A program made the translations under genes and the position numbers. A DNA stretch of 21,492 bases from a virus. Shown here piece by piece: positions 1,472-21,108 of the stretch. The DNA lies in IMG/VR virus record IMGVR_UViG_3300032676_001184, positions 1 through 21,492 of that record; one strand, 5' to 3'. The number at the start of each line of letters is the position of its first letter. Position 1 is the stretch's first letter. The notes under the pieces are model-generated. The model was given only the letters and a program-made list of their open reading frames with translations. It searched no databases and had not been told where the DNA came from.

Positions 1472-2344
1472 ATGACGTCAAATCCGTTACAACAGTTTTT
1501 CAGACAACCAAGCGTTTACTTGCGCCTACCTACTAAGGGCAAATGGTATACTAGTGAAATAGTTGAGACTACCGCAGATAACGAACTAGCAGTTTACCCG
1601 CTGTCTGCTATGAACGACATCATGTTGAACACGCCGGATGCCATGCTCAATGGACAAGCATTAGAAAACGTGATTAAGGATTGTGCACCTGGAATAAAAG
1701 ACGTTAAAAGATTTCTGTTGCCAGATGTTGAAGCACTTTTTTTAGCTATTAAGTCAGCTAGTAACGGTGGAAAAATAGACATTGACCGTAAATGTCCAAA
1801 ATGTGAGGCAGATAACACATACGAACTTAATTGTAGCTATCTGCTAGATTCATCTACATTTTTAAACGAAGACGATTTAACCACTCAATTTAGTGACGAA
1901 CTTGTTATACACGTACGTCCTTACGATTTTGAAATGCGTCAACTATTTCTAAAGCGTGAATTTGAAGAAGAAAAAACTTTTCGTAACATCAATGCGCAAG
2001 GTGATGCTATAGATGATATTACGAAAGCAAAATTAATGGCAGAAAGTATAGAGCGTCTGTCTAAGCTTACCTTTAGTTTGGTTAGTCGTAGCATTGAAAA
2101 AATTGTAATTTTAAAACAAAATGTTACAGTAACTGATCGTGAACATATAAACGAATGGCTTGTAGGTATTAGTAAGGCACAAGCTGAAATAGTAATGGAA
2201 GCGGTTGACAAAATTAATAAAATTGGCATACCAAAAACACTTACTGCACAGTGTACATCATGTGGACACAGTTGGGAGGACGCATTGTCGTTTGATCCAG
2301 CAAGTTTTTTCGGCAAACGCTCGCTACAGGGGATGGCGAGCTGA
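1472..2344 (+). CDS. gp26: gp26-like baseplate hub / tail assembly chaperone protein, with zinc-ribbon cysteines
   Basis: This 290-residue protein resembles the T4 gp26 family (T4_baseplate), which acts in hub and tail assembly. Two CxxC pairs, C108/C111 (CPKC) and C261/C264 (CTSC), could bind one zinc ion. The end shows the SFDPASFF motif that I associate with marine T4-like gp26 homologues. The ATG at 1472 follows AGAGG at a good distance and lies behind a late promoter. In T4, gene 26 is linked to gene 51, and a small gp51-like ORF follows here. The FF codons (residues 279-280) form a UUUUUUC slippery heptamer with a downstream hairpin, so some ribosomes probably continue in the -1 frame to make a 356-residue fusion (280 + 76 residues). 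The 290-residue product would be the unshifted form. Confidence 0.72.
   Translation: MTSNPLQQFFRQPSVYLRLPTKGKWYTSEIVETTADNELAVYPLSAMNDIMLNTPDAMLNGQALENVIKDCAPGIKDVKRFLLPDVEALFLAIKSASNGGKIDIDRKCPKCEADNTYELNCSYLLDSSTFLNEDDLTTQFSDELVIHVRPYDFEMRQLFLKREFEEEKTFRNINAQGDAIDDITKAKLMAESIERLSKLTFSLVSRSIEKIVILKQNVTVTDREHINEWLVGISKAQAEIVMEAVDKINKIGIPKTLTAQCTSCGHSWEDALSFDPASFFGKRSLQGMAS
2305..2341 (+). other. Programmed -1 ribosomal frameshift signal (slippery T TTT TTC plus hairpin)
   Basis: In the gp26-like frame the codons read agT TTT TTC, so the heptamer at 2305-2311 is a canonical X XXY YYZ slippery site. A 7-base spacer (2312-2318) follows, then a hairpin. The arms are 2319-2326 (GCTCGCTA) and 2334-2341 (TGGCGAGC): six perfect pairs, mostly G-C, plus one G-U and one A-T. 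The loop is 7 bases (2327-2333). Heptamer, spacer length and GC-rich stem in AT-rich DNA match the standard bacterial and phage -1 frameshift layout. After slipping, the next codon is CGG at 2311 and the frame stays open to the stop at 2539-2541. Confidence 0.8.
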
Positions 2345-11854: not shown

Positions 11855-14800
11855 ATGGTAGAACTAACAAAGCATATCAATGCGCCAAAAGAATATTCGC
11901 AACAACCAATCGGTAGAGCTACATTACAGGATAAAATTTACGTAGGTTTCGTAAAGTACGTAGAAGATGCTAATACTATGGGCCGACTAAAAGTTTGGAT
12001 TCCTGAGCTCAGCGGAGATCCAAATGATTCAAATGGCTGGTACATAATGAGCTACTGTTCCCCGTTTGCCGGTGCTACAAATGTACTGGATAACAAAAAC
12101 GATAATAGTTTTCCTAGTACTCAAAAAAGTTATGGTATGTGGTTTGTGCCGCCAGATATTAACAATGAGGTTGTTTGTGCATTTATAAATGGCGACCCTG
12201 GTAGAGGCATTTGGTTTGGATGTTTGTATCAACAAAATATGAATCAAATGGTACCTGGATTACCAGGCAATAATAACCAAGCTACTCTTCCTGTGGCAGA
12301 GTACAATAAAAAAATTACACAATCGAGTCTCAAAACTCCAGACAGACCATTATATTATCCTCTTGCAGATCAGCTGAAAATACAAGGACTTGATCAAGAT
12401 ACAATAAGAGGTGTTTCTACAAGCGGTGCCCGCCGATTTGATCCACCATTAAGTGTGTATGGTTGGTTAACACCCGGCGGCAGTCAGCTGGTATACGACG
12501 ATAATCCAACTAACACATATATTAGACTTAGAACACCAAGTGGTGCTCAAATCATGATAAATGATACCACAGGTTGCATATACATGAATTCAGTTGACGG
12601 TAAAAACTGGTTAAGTATGGACGCCGGTGGTCGTATAGATGTTTATGGATATGGTGATATTAGTATTCGCAGCCAAGGCAGTTTGAATTTTAGAGCCGAT
12701 CAAGATGTTAACATAGAAGCTGGACAAAATATTAACATTAGAGCAAGAGGCACTACAGCCGTAACTCCGGTTGTCAATCCACAAGCTAATGCCCCTCAAC
12801 CTGCTCCTCCTACACCCGGACCTTCGGCTATAGTCGGAGATGGCACTGCATTAGCACTAGCATCACGTATTCCTGGCTCAACATCACTGGCACAGCCTGG
12901 ATATAGCAGTAGCGACGCATTGGTTGCAGTTCAGAATAACTTTAATACAGCTGATGGTATAGTAAATGGTGTAGTTAGTGTAGGAGCATCTGACAGTGAT
13001 CAAACTTTATTGTTAACTAATATTAGTTTAATAAGAGGAGCATTGAACGCAACTAGTTATGTTTGGATACTGCCTTACAACACAGCATCTGCCAACACGA
13101 TAAAAACTTTTGCCTTATCAAAAGGGGATCAAACCCTACCGTTGTCTAATTATCCTACGTCTGATAATATTGTTCCAAGAGATTACAACGTAGTGACAAA
13201 CGATCTAACACCCCTGTTAAAACCAGCAAATACTGCCGGATCTGGACCAACGCAGACAGGCTCAACGGGCAATATTCCTACTTCAACAACTTCTACACAA
13301 CCTCAAAGTGGATCAGCTGTAATTGGCACAAGTAACTTTAGTTCAGCTACCCCAACAACCGGTAGTCCAGCACCAGTCCCGCCTCCGGCTACATCAAATC
13401 TGCCAGGGAGCACTGTTCCTGCTGCGACATCAACGTCGGGTAGTGTAGGTAACGCAGCACCAGCTGGTACAACCACTACTAGCGTTTTAGTGCCGTTTCT
13501 CAAACAAGTAGAAGGCAAATCAAATAAAGCATATTGGGATACAGTATCAAATAAGCACATTAGTATCGGTTATGGGCATCAAATTAAACCCAATGAATAT
13601 GCGCAAGGTTATATAGATACAGGAACGGCAGGCAGAATCGCAGTATCACCTATGCCAAGTACGTCTGTAAATCCACCAAATAATGCTAATGCAACCGACG
13701 ATCAGTGTTCTGCATTGCTTTCAATTGATGTTCAAATTTACATAGCCGGTGCTCACAGTACTTTAGGCGGTGCGTGGGATATACTTGGCCCTTATCAGCA
13801 GGCCGCGCTAACCAGCGTACAATATAATCTTCCAAGCGCACTAAAGTGGATGGTAGCCAATGGCCTTAACAACTTTATCACCAACAATGATCTACAAGGC
13901 GCTGCCAATCTTATTATACAAGCACCAAGAAAGGGTATTGGTGATCGCGCAACCAAAGAATCAAATCTGTACATGCAACGCCCAGATTTACTAGGTTCAG
14001 GCGGTAGCACGCCTGTTCCGGGCCAGCCCGCAGGCGGAGTCAATAACACAGTTCCTGGTACCGGAAGCGCATCTCGCCCTTCATGTGGATTGGTAAATGA
14101 AAATCCTAGTATACAAAATGGGTATATTAGAATGCAGAGTACCAATAGTATGCATCTGCTGGCAAATCAGTATATGTTCCTAACCTCCGGTGCTGACATG
14201 CATCGGTTTGCAGGGGCAAACATGTTTGACACCGCCGGAACCAACTGGAACCGGGCAGCAGGCGGATTCGTACACGAAAGCGTTGGACAGGACTATGCAC
14301 TTGGAGCTTCCAGTGAAATTAACCTTTTTGCAACCCGTGTGGACATAAACGGCACGGCTCCGCCGTTGGCCGTTGCTGCGGTCGCTGCGCAGGGTCCAAA
14401 TGACATCAATCAACAGGATGGAATTTTAGATACACTTGGAAATGTAATACCCATATTAACAGATACAATTGTATATCATTTGCCTTATCACGAACCTTAC
14501 GACGATCATGGTGGTAGAAATGCATATGGCATACAAAATGCTACTCAGTACAATACTAATACCGGACTTAGACCCGGCGAAGTTATTACAAACAGTCAAC
14601 AACCTTTGAATATTATAGGTTCACCGCTGTCAAATATGCCGCTTGGAATCTACCAAGGAGCAGGTTATAATGCGCAGAATCAACCTGTGTATGCATTCAA
14701 AGGACCAATTAGTTCAAGCAATGCTGCTCTACAACCATCTGCTAGTGTGCAACTATCTCAACAAGGTACGCAATTTATGGAAGGTTATGAAAATGGAAGT

Positions 14801-15328
14801 TACATACCAATAATCGTAGGCGAGCCGCCTGTTTCGCAGATAGGTTACGGACATAACCTCACACCTGTCGAAATAAGCACCGGTCAAGTAAGCATCAACG
14901 GAACAAGTTATAGTCTATTAAGTCCATTAAGCCAACAGCTGATAGGTCAGCTGTTTCAACAAGATATGGTTGCTGTTCAAAATTGGATGCGTCCAGTGAT
15001 AAACAATGTACAAGTAACACAGACACAATACGATATGCTTTGCAGTCTTGCATTCAATATTGGTCAGACAAACTTTACTAATGCACCTGTTATAAAAGAA
15101 CTGAATGCAGGAAATTACCAAAATGTTCCAAATTTATGGATGCAATGGACTATAAACGGTGCAGGTAAACTTGTGCCACAGTTAGTTCAACGTAGATTAG
15201 CAGAGGCTACAAATTTCATGCTGTCGCCGTTCCAGCAGACTGTGCCAAATCAAAGTCCTAACGGCCTAAACGCTAATTTTTCCAATACAGGAACAGGACA
15301 GGTAACACCGTTGCAGCCAAATCAGTAA
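11855..15328 (+). CDS. gp5: gp5-like baseplate central spike with two lysozyme-like domains, 1157 residues
   Basis: The N-terminal OB-fold (about 25-135) matches gp5/VgrG spikes: IYVGFVKYVEDANTMGRLKVW, then MWFVPPDINNEVVCAFING. A first beta-helix (about 242-300) has DISIRSQGSLNF, DVNIEAGQNINI. A long Pro/Ser/Thr-rich linker follows (about 300-545). Lysozyme-like domain 1 (about 545-700) carries E553, D562 and S570 before IGYGH, equivalent to the E-D-T triad of T4 lysozyme. A second beta-helix follows (about 752-832). Domain 2 (about 970-1145) keeps E976, IGYGH and a typical GH24 end (LCSLAFNIGQ, LVQRRLAEA), but the aspartate position reads Pro985 and the Thr position Ser/Gln, so it looks catalytically weak. 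T4 gp5 is 575 residues with one lysozyme. The spike should puncture the envelope and open peptidoglycan. No Shine-Dalgarno is seen. Its stop abuts that of the RimK-like gene. Confidence 0.85.
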   Translation: MVELTKHINAPKEYSQQPIGRATLQDKIYVGFVKYVEDANTMGRLKVWIPELSGDPNDSNGWYIMSYCSPFAGATNVLDNKNDNSFPSTQKSYGMWFVPPDINNEVVCAFINGDPGRGIWFGCLYQQNMNQMVPGLPGNNNQATLPVAEYNKKITQSSLKTPDRPLYYPLADQLKIQGLDQDTIRGVSTSGARRFDPPLSVYGWLTPGGSQLVYDDNPTNTYIRLRTPSGAQIMINDTTGCIYMNSVDGKNWLSMDAGGRIDVYGYGDISIRSQGSLNFRADQDVNIEAGQNINIRARGTTAVTPVVNPQANAPQPAPPTPGPSAIVGDGTALALASRIPGSTSLAQPGYSSSDALVAVQNNFNTADGIVNGVVSVGASDSDQTLLLTNISLIRGALNATSYVWILPYNTASANTIKTFALSKGDQTLPLSNYPTSDNIVPRDYNVVTNDLTPLLKPANTAGSGPTQTGSTGNIPTSTTSTQPQSGSAVIGTSNFSSATPTTGSPAPVPPPATSNLPGSTVPAATSTSGSVGNAAPAGTTTTSVLVPFLKQVEGKSNKAYWDTVSNKHISIGYGHQIKPNEYAQGYIDTGTAGRIAVSPMPSTSVNPPNNANATDDQCSALLSIDVQIYIAGAHSTLGGAWDILGPYQQAALTSVQYNLPSALKWMVANGLNNFITNNDLQGAANLIIQAPRKGIGDRATKESNLYMQRPDLLGSGGSTPVPGQPAGGVNNTVPGTGSASRPSCGLVNENPSIQNGYIRMQSTNSMHLLANQYMFLTSGADMHRFAGANMFDTAGTNWNRAAGGFVHESVGQDYALGASSEINLFATRVDINGTAPPLAVAAVAAQGPNDINQQDGILDTLGNVIPILTDTIVYHLPYHEPYDDHGGRNAYGIQNATQYNTNTGLRPGEVITNSQQPLNIIGSPLSNMPLGIYQGAGYNAQNQPVYAFKGPISSSNAALQPSASVQLSQQGTQFMEGYENGSYIPIIVGEPPVSQIGYGHNLTPVEISTGQVSINGTSYSLLSPLSQQLIGQLFQQDMVAVQNWMRPVINNVQVTQTQYDMLCSLAFNIGQTNFTNAPVIKELNAGNYQNVPNLWMQWTINGAGKLVPQLVQRRLAEATNFMLSPFQQTVPNQSPNGLNANFSNTGTGQVTPLQPNQ

Positions 15329-16219
15329 TTATGAAATTCTAAAGTTGATGTATTCAACAATAGCTTTAGCCATATCGTGTTGACAGTAGGTTTCAAAGCC
15401 GTAAAAACCAGGCGCACTATTTGCTTCACAAACTTTGAAACCGTCTTTGTCAAATAATAAATCAACACCTGCAATATCTAGATTCAGTATTCTTGCCGTT
15501 TCGCCTGCAATAAATTCAATCTCAGGTGTAATTGCAAATTGTGCCCCAGACCCACCGTTTGAGATATTTGCTCTAAAATCATTTTGAGCTGTGCGTTGCA
15601 TTGCTCCTATTACTTTTCCGCCGATTACCCAAACTCTTAAATCAGTTCCAACTTTGTATCCAATGTATTCTTGAATAATCAAGCTTTTATTAGTAGACAG
15701 GCTGTTGATAAGCTCCATGAGCTCCGCAAAACTTGATTTATTTTTACACAGATAAACACCTTTACCATGGCTGCTTGTTATCACTTTAACTACACAAGGC
15801 CAACCGATTTCTCGGTCAACAAGCTCTTCGTTAATAGGCCAACGCACCAACATGGTTTTTGGTATAGGAAGTCCGTGCTTAGCAAGTAATTGGCTAGTTT
15901 CTAGTTTGTCTTTTACTCTATCTATACTTGCACTCGAGCTAATAACTGGAACCCCTAGATTTTCTAGTTGGCGCATAGCAGCCAAACAAAAATAATTAGA
16001 ACCAGAGCCTGTTCTAGCTAGAACCGCATCTGGTAATTCTGGTTTTTTACCATTTAGCCAAACGTTAGTATTGTCTTTCTTAGTAACAATTAAATCAAGA
16101 GAATTTGGATGAATTAACTTGGCATCAATGTTATATGCAGAAAATGTTTCTAAGAGCCGATGATTTTCATATTCTTCATTTGTTTTTCTACTTAAAATCC
16201 AAATATGTGCCATCCACAC
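15329..16219 (-). CDS. RimK-like ATP-grasp ligase
   Basis: This 296-residue ATP-grasp enzyme resembles RimK and related alpha-L-glutamate ligases, which join glutamate (or another amino acid) to a protein or small peptide using ATP. The visible motifs are: N-terminal domain with AHIWILSR and VLARTGSGSNYF; ATP-binding strand CVVKVITSSHGKGVYL; adenine loop LIIQEYIG; DLRVWVIGGKVIGAMQR; glycine-rich NGGSGAQF; and metal site AGVDLLF ... CEANSAPGF with E265 and N267. Length fits the family (about 300). Known bacterial RimK adds glutamates to ribosomal protein S6; the phage substrate is unknown. AAGAAAAG lies six bases before the ATG at 16219, although Met-3 is also possible. It is the last gene of a four-gene leftward island that includes an acyl carrier protein. 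Confidence 0.85.
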   Translation of the reverse strand: MWMAHIWILSRKTNEEYENHRLLETFSAYNIDAKLIHPNSLDLIVTKKDNTNVWLNGKKPELPDAVLARTGSGSNYFCLAAMRQLENLGVPVISSSASIDRVKDKLETSQLLAKHGLPIPKTMLVRWPINEELVDREIGWPCVVKVITSSHGKGVYLCKNKSSFAELMELINSLSTNKSLIIQEYIGYKVGTDLRVWVIGGKVIGAMQRTAQNDFRANISNGGSGAQFAITPEIEFIAGETARILNLDIAGVDLLFDKDGFKVCEANSAPGFYGFETYCQHDMAKAIVEYINFRIS

Positions 16220-16242
16220 ATATTTAGCTTTTCTTAAAATTT

Positions 16243-16527
16243 TTAATGTATAGTGAAAAAGTCTAGCATCTGCTCATCACAGAAATCTTCTGCATCAAAC
16301 ATACCGATCATATCCTGATATTCAGGCCATATGCAATTACAATTGCAACAAATTTTGTCTGCAAATTTGTTATGCTCTGTTGCTTTGCGAACAATCTGCG
16401 ACGATTCGCAAATAGCACACCATCGCTTACCGTTATCAAAATATTGACCATGCGATGTAGGCATGTTCTCAAATAACTCAATAAGCATCTGTCTTGCTTC
16501 GTCATCACCAACTTGTGCCACAAACAT
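16243..16527 (-). CDS. Small cysteine-rich protein, 94 residues, unknown function
   Basis: I do not recognise this protein. The first 30 residues form a likely acidic helix (DDEARQMLIELFENM). It then has C37-x2-C40 (WCAIC) and a cluster C60, C61, C63, C65 (KICCNCNC), which suggests a zinc-ribbon-like or other metal-binding fold. The C-terminus is acidic (MFDAEDFCDEQMLDFF). The ATG has AAAGGA seven bases upstream, a good ribosome binding site. It lies 23 bases upstream of the RimK-like gene and 11 bases after the preceding small gene, so it is probably co-transcribed with both. Confidence 0.65.
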   Translation of the reverse strand: MFVAQVGDDEARQMLIELFENMPTSHGQYFDNGKRWCAICESSQIVRKATEHNKFADKICCNCNCIWPEYQDMIGMFDAEDFCDEQMLDFFTIH

Positions 16528-16538
16528 GTTTTTGTCCT

Positions 16539-16754
16539 TTAGTTAATTAAAGTCTTTACTAAACTTTTTTGTATGAGAAAATTTAAAACAGCTTCTGCTT
16601 GCCCTCTGCAAAAATTTCTCTGTGTTTCACTGGTTTTTTTCCAATGATCAGCCGTACATGTTCCATACTGTGTATAACTATCAGCGTAGATTATACGAGC
16701 CATCTCTTCAATTAAATTTTGCTTAATCAAGGCTGTATTTTCGTTTAATTTCAT
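16539..16754 (-). CDS. Small phage protein, up to 71 residues, unknown function
   Basis: This short helical protein contains MARIIYADSYTQ, then W and R residues followed by GQAEAVLNFLIQKS. Many phages encode small proteins of this pattern (an aliphatic N-terminal helix, a mid Trp, and a C-terminal A-AVL--L helix) without known function. From the ATG at 16754 it overlaps the end of the acyl carrier protein gene by 32 bases in another frame and has no ribosome binding site. The internal Met (MARII) has GAAGAG directly before it, so neither start is well supported. It is probably real because it fills the gap between two genes and has a coherent helical pattern, but confidence is moderate. Confidence 0.5.
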   Translation of the reverse strand: MKLNENTALIKQNLIEEMARIIYADSYTQYGTCTADHWKKTSETQRNFCRGQAEAVLNFLIQKSLVKTLIN

Positions 16755-16985
16755 TTATAAAGGGCCCAACCTGCGAGACTTTTTGATATATGGTGTCGTC
16801 TTCAATGGCAATAGCAAAGGTTTCCTCTAAATAAAGCAGCAGTTCTATACGTTCAAGGCTATCAAACTGTAAATCGATAAAAAATCCATTAGAGGATGTA
16901 TTTTACAATCTGGAATTATAGAGTGTATAAAAGTGAACACTGCGTTTTCAACATTTGGTTTTTTATTCAAAATAGGTTTGGTCAT
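16723..16985 (-). CDS. Acyl carrier protein, split by an apparent -1 frameshift at T TTT TTA
   Basis: From the ATG at 16985 the first frame reads 36 residues, ending PLMDFL, and without a shift stops at 16845 (46 residues). The -1 frame then gives IDLQFDSLERIELLLYLEE and a C-terminus to the stop at 16723. Joined at the heptamer (16884-16878) these give an 87-residue protein with a near-perfect acyl carrier protein signature. It has FDSLERIELL with Ser43 as the 4'-phosphopantetheine attachment site and LEETFAIAIEDD, at the normal length of about 80. The second frame has no plausible start codon of its own upstream of the ACP motif, because it opens just after a stop. So either ribosomes shift, or the run of six Ts has lost one base (mutation or sequencing error). 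It is the first gene of the leftward island ending with the RimK-like ligase. Confidence 0.8.
16840..16884 (-). other. Candidate -1 frameshift site in the acyl carrier protein gene
   Basis: On the minus strand the codons GAT TTT TTA place the slippery heptamer T TTT TTA at 16884-16878, in the correct phase for a -1 shift into the ACP frame. After an 8-base spacer there is only a weak possible stem: CAGTTT (16869-16864) with GAACTG (16845-16840), including one G-U pair, and an 18-base loop. This is much less convincing than the signal at 2305-2341, so a one-base loss in the T run is a serious alternative. Confidence 0.4.
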
Positions 16986-17028: not shown

Positions 17029-17412
17029 ATGGTAACTTTGACAAGTAAAAATCTCTTTGTTGGTTATACTACTGTTAATACGTTTGGTAGTCAACAGCTT
17101 GCCGACATTAAATTAGTGAATCAAGATCTTTATAATGCGTTTAATACTCGCAAAAACGAAAGATTAATGATGCCAGGATATGGATTTGGAGGGTGGGAGT
17201 ATCTATTTGAGCCTATTGATAGCGTGAGAGATCTTATAGTTTATGAGGCGCAACAAATAATAAACAATGATCCAAGAGTACAGTTACAGTCAATAAATGT
17301 TACTCAGCAACAATTTGGTGTAAGAATACAGATGCAACTCTATTATGTACCTTGGAATGCCGTTGGAAATTTTCAGGTAGATTTTGACAACCGAAGTGCA
17401 GCATTAGGATAA
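17029..17412 (+). CDS. gp25: Baseplate wedge protein gp25
   Basis: This 127-residue protein belongs to the gp25/gpW wedge family, which links the wedge to the hub and starts sheath assembly. The characteristic region is DLYNAFNTRKNERLMMPGYGFG followed by WEYLFEPIDSVRDLIVYEAQQII and NDPRVQLQSINV: the family's N-R-GER-M-P--G---W--LFE motif and DPRV turn are plainly visible. Length agrees with T4 gp25 (132). It is the first gene of a rightward wedge operon and is followed by gp6, the usual neighbour. Confidence 0.92.
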   Translation: MVTLTSKNLFVGYTTVNTFGSQQLADIKLVNQDLYNAFNTRKNERLMMPGYGFGGWEYLFEPIDSVRDLIVYEAQQIINNDPRVQLQSINVTQQQFGVRIQMQLYYVPWNAVGNFQVDFDNRSAALG

Positions 17413-20400: not shown

Positions 20401-21108
20401 TATCAAAGCATTGCCGCAGACATTGTTGGAACTTTGGTAAATGTAACAACCAACTGGAAAGTAAGAATAGGCCGTAATAACCTAGCATTTACCTGGGTCC
20501 ATTATGCTCCTACTGACCAAAGAATTAATCCTGCTGTGACAAATGTAATAGACATGTATGTGTTGACTAGCTCTTATAATCTTGCTTTACGAAATTGGAT
20601 AGCAACAAATGGCAGCTTGGCATCAATACCATTACCTGAAACAAGTGCAGAACTTGCGGCCACGTTTAGTAATCTAGATCAATATGCAATGATGACTGAT
20701 CAAATGATTTGGCATCCAGTTAGTTACTTGCTTTTGTTTGGTCCACAAGCAGCACAAGAATTACAGGCAAATTTTCTTGTGGTCCCTGTTCCAGGTACAA
20801 CTTACACAAATAATCAAATTCAAAGTTTGGTTATACAAACTATAAATCAATATTTTGCATTGGTGAATTGGGATTTTGGGGATAGCTTTTTCTTTACAGA
20901 AATGGCAGCATATGTACATCAAAACCTGGCTACAATTATAGGCAGTATCGTAATGGTTCCTCAAAATTCGCAGTCAGCTTTTGGCAATTTATTTGAAATA
21001 GAGTGTTTGCCTGATCAAATACCAATCAGCTGTGCTACAGTTCAAAACGTGCAAATAGTTCAAAGTCTTACCGATTCAGTTTTAAGGATAAGCAATAACA
21101 ATGGCTAA
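17431..21108 (+). CDS. gp6: Baseplate wedge protein gp6, extended (1225 residues)
   Basis: The N-terminus is typical of gp6/gpJ wedge proteins: a DFQTIRTAMINYIRLNYPEDF stretch, then WIESSEFVAIIDLLAYLGQSL, FRMDLNTRENFLETATRRDSI and ARMLSYQPQRC. gp6 dimers form the inner ring of the baseplate. The conserved core continues to about residue 550 (RFADGTFGNVPVG, YYSGQSRYLDINDP). A region of about 550-850, rich in Gly, Thr and Asn, looks inserted. The C-terminal part has WKVRIGRNNLAFTWVHYAP, IDMYVLTSSYNLALRNWI and a final FFFTEMAAYVHQNL. T4 gp6 is 660 residues, so this one is nearly double; marine T4-like phages also have long gp6 proteins. It starts 18 bases after gp25 and overlaps the next gene by 8 bases. 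Confidence 0.9.
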   Translation: MATTQQVRQSQLFAAQDWQVIYTAFTQINFNAYDFQTIRTAMINYIRLNYPEDFTDWIESSEFVAIIDLLAYLGQSLAFRMDLNTRENFLETATRRDSIFKLARMLSYQPQRCIPASGLLQITSIITDQPIIDPDGNNLQNVQINWNDLNNPNWYEQFILVLNATLNTTNTFGNPSQKGTVNGILTELYEMNNTSIPTSVIPFTASVSGNTLNFELANAGFNTGTTQNILNSGSFYEVNPNPLNSWNIIYQNDGNGFSSPNTGFFFYFKQGTMQYQDYLCEQPIANRIIDVNADNVNQTDIWVQNVDTTGLVTTQWTQVPSVAGFNIIYNSIANNVRNIFAVISRNVDTSDQISIRFADGTFGNVPVGVIRVWYRISNNLTYQILPADITDQTFAFSYADQLNNIYNVAFTTNLQYTVTNAQTAETNPQIALNAPQVYYTQDRMVNGEDYNLLPLSNPAALKVKAVNRYYSGQSRYLDINDPTGSYNSLNVVCTDGIFYSENDLNTVSILNSPGINLSVIVNTQIQPLINGSLGQQNAASELEDFYYYNYPRISVPFGYTWNTITSSTKSCTGAIYVGSVAVQIGNYAPMLSFLGYITTGSIIKFASGTIASVVGIIGDGTGVNLTGSINGIASGPNAGPGAVTLSVTVASNDVPVQIITAYNATLTQSSVNSIAAAMASHTTFGIRYAAQGILNSQGTLDYWVVIPTSDLNSATTFSTAYAGNTSNTNKDNSWLLIVSWNGAGWTVNSRALRYIFESATQTQFYFDSFEKSFDPSTGSAEYDYISILGTNENSNTASIQTVVTSMTAGNNTVIVASSLGIETGQIVLGPGIPPNTIVSSLSLNLITLSNPASLTQTNSQIIFYPQPSLGQDYLWQIIGQQIEPDGYADPSSVRVTMWQSNNYGVPNNPDEYNAVVNPAVNASHLLFWQQISSSEGYQYWQPVELDPSQIFQDVSQLPPITVIINGQLTVNTYWVPGKIVYTINQQIVYQYQSIAADIVGTLVNVTTNWKVRIGRNNLAFTWVHYAPTDQRINPAVTNVIDMYVLTSSYNLALRNWIATNGSLASIPLPETSAELAATFSNLDQYAMMTDQMIWHPVSYLLLFGPQAAQELQANFLVVPVPGTTYTNNQIQSLVIQTINQYFALVNWDFGDSFFFTEMAAYVHQNLATIIGSIVMVPQNSQSAFGNLFEIECLPDQIPISCATVQNVQIVQSLTDSVLRISNNNG

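Follow-up and report, generated by a model that had tools for sequence, protein, structure and literature searches.

Features of the locus

The window analysed here is a 21,492-base IMG/VR virus record from an uncultured, AT-rich tailed phage. On sequence grounds the phage is a myovirus whose baseplate is related to those of jumbo phages; its gp25 is about 40% identical to that of the nearest named phages, jumbo phages including Erwinia phage Kaldavass, GAP32, CBB and Atu_ph07. A minus-strand cassette of four genes (RimK-like ATP-grasp ligase, 94-aa protein, 71-aa protein and acyl carrier protein, ACP) lies inside the baseplate operon at 15329-16985. Pectobacterium phage CBB carries its hub-lysozyme, gp25 and wedge genes consecutively, and the cassette is absent. 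The gp25 gene, the divergent neighbour of the ACP gene, served as synteny anchor. The features considered are the following.

1472-2344, plus strand: intact T4_baseplate-family gene, 290 aa, which offers an in-genome control for the slippery site
11855-15328: gp5-like hub lysozyme gene, flanking the cassette on the side opposite gp25
15329-16219, minus strand: RimK-like ATP-grasp ligase, cassette member (PF08443, E=1.8e-44)
16243-16527, minus strand: 94-aa Cys-rich cassette gene, with homologues in six related loci (36-40% identity)
16539-16754, minus strand: 71-aa gene, next in the accessory cassette, with homologues in the related loci L012, L014 and L015
16723-16985, minus strand: whole ACP gene, with its two parts in frames 0 and -1; the joined 87 aa match PF00550 and phrog_5934
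16845-16985, minus strand: frame-0 open reading frame, 46 aa, seen from codon log-odds (16985-16880) and alignment
16878-16884, minus strand: T TTT TTA heptamer at the frame joint, with six Ts at 16879-16884
16723-16878, minus strand: ACP core in frame -1, 51 codons and a stop, seen from a relatives-only profile and codon log-odds
17029-17412, plus strand: gp25 baseplate wedge gene (PF04965, E=2.6e-10)

The 71-aa gene overlaps the 3' end of the ACP gene, as it does in relatives. Identity across relatives is about 80% for the RimK-like protein, against 36-40% for the 94-aa protein and 20-34% for the ACP.

The two frames of the ACP gene

An earlier note on this DNA described an ACP gene split between two frames, readable through a -1 shift at TTTTTTA. 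This is confirmed: once joined, the 87 residues match PF00550 (E=1.6e-5; 25.5 bits, above the curated cut-off of 20.8) and phrog_5934 'acyl carrier protein' (E=1.2e-7), and by these matches the gene is identified as a phage acyl carrier protein of family PF00550. The core was detected by itself in the genome scan as one open frame (PF00550, 23.4 bits); helix I is encoded in the other frame, and no single frame holds the complete protein. Residues D42, S43 and L44, which include the DSL serine, are invariant across the ACP alignment. The DSL serine and the D-L-x-x-D-S-L and V-G-x-x-I motifs are shared with bacterial-type ACPs (PF00550; best PDB profile match 2ehs, E=3.2e-16), although the window copy, unlike these, is unreadable in a single frame. 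Phage ACPs of phrog_5934, such as MAM_092 of Serratia phage phiMAM1, are likewise small stand-alone ACPs of large myoviruses, and ACPs have been reported in Eneladusvirus jumbo phages (PMC7760394). Those phage ACPs that were examined are single CDSs located outside the gp25 neighbourhood, whereas that of the window is split and lies beside gp25.

Frame 0 starts with ATG at 16985 and ends with TAG at 16847-16845. By alignment, its residues 1-36 correspond to helix I and loop 1 of ACP and residues 37-46 form an out-of-frame tail. The core codons run from 16878 to 16726, include that of the DSL phosphopantetheine serine, and are followed by a stop at 16725-16723. The two frames overlap by 18 codons, with T TTT TTA inside the overlap in the correct phase; the 36-residue N-terminal part and the 51-residue core do meet at a canonical heptamer (16884-16878), as had been claimed. 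The core frame is closed upstream by a stop at 16905-16903, and no ATG, GTG or TTG occurs in it between this stop and the DSL motif, in agreement with the earlier statement that the core has no start of its own. Internal initiation in the core frame is thereby ruled out; its product would also be missing helix I.

Codon usage supports the view that the coding signal is real. Log-odds were positive in the claimed frames only, at +12.3 bits for the N-terminal part (16985-16880) and +18.4 bits for the core, against -12 to -39 bits in the other frames; 35-codon pieces of the phage gave medians of +16.5 in frame and -24.6 out of frame. A second, compensating frame change within the N-terminal part is ruled out, as the other frames there contain three to four stops and have negative coding scores. 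A profile built from four in-frame relatives gave 46.8 bits for the core and 54.5 bits for the joined protein, the latter being reached by 7 of 5000 shuffles of the whole N-terminal part and by 4 of 5000 when its last residues were kept. Scored alone against the same profile, the N-terminal part did not rise above shuffles; its recognition depends on its being in register with the core. The frame-specific codon usage and the joined profile score together point to one ancestral ACP gene that now occupies two frames.

The predicted structure of the in-frame relative L012 has four helices (residues 7-18, 38-52, 60-64 and 68-79; pLDDT 86.7). Alignment places the break in the loop that leads to helix II, the DSL serine marking the start of this helix. 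A 46-aa product made up of helix I and the loop, and lacking the serine, would very probably not function as an ACP.

Relatives and copies of the split gene

Related loci comprised 15 anchored on gp25 and six anchored on RimK. An ACP gene lies beside gp25 in a single unbroken frame in four lineages, represented by eight contigs (L008/L009, L010-L013, L015 and L022). The codons at the joint in these lineages are CTT TTA TGG GTC, ACG TTA ATT GAC, CGG TTG ATT GAC and AAA TTA ATA GAA. The comparison of six with seven Ts in relatives, proposed in the earlier note, did not turn up seven: none of the four in-frame lineages has a T-run at the site, and their ACP frame is unbroken. Phage ACPs at a greater distance likewise each occupy one open frame. 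In L014, L016/L017 and L018 the ACP is absent from beside gp25, and a profile search of these contigs, which are fragments, finds none. The 71-aa gene is present in L014, and in L018 RimK directly adjoins gp25. At L015:1886-3641 an IS200/IS605-type insertion (TnpB/OrfB_IS605, 433 aa, and a Y1 transposase, 168 aa) lies between the ACP gene and the 71-aa and RimK genes.

The in-frame relatives and the lineages lacking the gene together indicate that the split is derived, having arisen in the lineage of the window, and that the gene it affects is one that some lineages lack; the ACP looks dispensable at the gp25 locus, being absent there in three lineages. Near copies are identical across the ACP gene and the next relatives share 20-34% ACP identity; no moderately close relative was found. 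A tblastn search with the joined ACP through 50,697 phage records gave no match at E<=0.1, and a scan of the genome collection gave only weak matches to cellular ACPs (30-42%) and no close kin.

The identical gene, with six Ts, is present in three more contigs (records 3300032117, 3300021127 and 3300031884). A pattern scan of IMG/VR that tolerated 0-6 bases in the run returned the same three contigs and no other run length, so that the broken form is found in 4/4 contigs and the unbroken form in 0/4. The four contigs, window included, fall into at least three SNP haplotypes. The SNPs at window positions 20476 and 11366 are private and those at 20612 and 21013 are shared; the contigs are therefore not copies of one assembly. 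They are nearly clonal, and the shared split gives no date for the break.

These records bear on two explanations. Omission of one T from the run during assembly or sequencing, to which a homopolymer site lends itself, is very improbable, since the same six Ts recur in three further metagenome records with distinguishing SNPs, and the 17 other genes of the window are unbroken. The earlier note had rightly not decided between recoding and a lost T; assembly error is now unlikely, and a derived frameshift mutation is favoured over translational control. The frame could be restored in some transcripts or genomes if RNA polymerase slips at the T-run or if replication slippage produces phase variation, and a T-run does lie at the break. 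Its length is six bases, short of the about 9 or more of known bacterial transcriptional slippage runs (PMC5009743), and with no contig of another run length in the gap-tolerant scan this explanation is very improbable.

Signs of decay in the gene are weak, all in one direction. The window ACP has the longest branch in its tree (1.41, against 0.39-1.19 for the others), in a comparison of only about 81 columns, while the baseplate branch of the phage is 0.085, against 0.03-0.05 for the other tips. The N-terminal part of the window ACP is the most divergent, at 7-23% identity to relatives compared with 20-40% among relatives. The Shine-Dalgarno (SD) pairing energy at the start site is -2.2 kcal/mol, a random level, compared with -3.3 to -6.5 kcal/mol in relatives; some intact genes of the phage likewise have no start-site SD pairing. 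The core speaks against decay: it contains no stop and retains every residue invariant in relatives, which implies either that the break is recent or that the gene is still used.

The slippery heptamer and the origin of the split

Programmed -1 frameshifting (dnaX, IS911/IS3, phage tail assembly chaperones, and HIV-1, which uses U UUU UUA) has an in-phase X_XXY_YYZ heptamer at the joint, as is the case here. Heptamers of this type occur in phase 46 times in 6805 codons of the phage, and the chance of at least one canonical heptamer in the 18-codon overlap is about 11%. T TTT TTA, within a seven-T run, is also found in phase near gene offset 266 of the intact T4_baseplate gene. If a longer T-run begins at codon position 3, removal of one base inevitably yields the heptamer in the same phase. 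Its presence therefore hardly separates mutation from recoding; it is weak evidence for recoding, to which its phase adds nothing independent.

Heptamers lacking stimulators were reported to shift in E. coli at rates 2.1-10 times the background, which is about 0.055% (PMC4066793), by arithmetic at most roughly half a percent, and U_UUU_UUA is much less shift-prone than A_AAA_AAG (PMC5009743). These rates may not apply in the host of this phage. Structure downstream of the heptamer, scored as nested folds in three segments, was in none of them better than dinucleotide shuffles (z = +0.64, +0.26 and -0.14), which bears out the earlier description of the downstream stem as weak. An SD-like stimulator was not found 8-20 nt upstream (AAAATACATCCTCTAATGGA, duplex -2.4 kcal/mol, random level). 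The inverted repeat TCCTCTAA/TTAGAGGA (16823-16830 and 16889-16896) straddles the site and holds the heptamer within its 58-nt loop; with its 5' arm upstream of the heptamer, it was rejected as a stimulator.

Under functional -1 frameshifting at U UUU UUA, ribosomes would make full-length ACP in a fixed, low proportion to the 46-residue peptide, as a form of translational control. The in-phase heptamer at the joint is consistent with this, as are two coding halves, an intact core, a joined length that aligns without gaps over 82 aa with one in-frame relative, and the fixation of the split in four contigs. It is nevertheless unlikely. The site differs from programmed -1 systems in having no structure or SD stimulator, in its gene type, and in an arrangement that occurs in no other lineage, the eight contigs of the four divergent lineages being single-frame. 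In addition, the motif is weak in E. coli without stimulators (PMC4066793, PMC5009743), the short product has no evident use, and phages that keep an ACP elsewhere encode it in a single frame. Translational control, one of the two options of the earlier note, thus has little support without structure, an SD-like stimulator or conservation. That a lineage-specific -1 frameshift sets the dose of a phage ACP, and so adds a new gene class to phage recoding, is improbable; no case of a phage ACP under recoding was found in the literature searched.

The best account of the split is probably a frameshift by one base, particular to this lineage, in an accessory ACP gene. The ancestor would have carried the ACP in one uninterrupted frame, as do all relatives that still have the gene. 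Loss of a single base in the lineage of the window, most simply in the T-run at 16879-16884, would have put the first 36 codons out of frame with the last 51. Most ribosomes would then make the 46-residue peptide, which has helix I and the loop but not the phosphopantetheine serine and should be non-functional. The broken run would read U UUU UUA, and rare unassisted slippage may leave a trace of full-length ACP. On such an account the split would be mutational in origin and presumably recent, and the gene would have lost its function. The stop-free conserved core, the broken state of 4/4 contigs and a joint placed exactly on a canonical heptamer count against the mutational account. Comparable cases are the 'savior' or compensated indels and pseudo-pseudogenes discussed in PMC5009743, in which a homopolymer indel leaves a slippery site with a possible trace of full-length product; for the window ACP such a product is only a possibility.

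Functional recoding, if true, would be translational control of a phage ACP without a precedent known to us. The locus also carries a warning: in an AT-rich homopolymer the loss of one base is enough to generate a textbook slippery heptamer in the correct phase, and recoding should not be called at such a joint unless it is conserved or has a stimulator. If the split is a simple frameshift, little is at stake, and the locus records how an accessory ACP has been gained, has been lost and has decayed within the baseplate region in this phage group.
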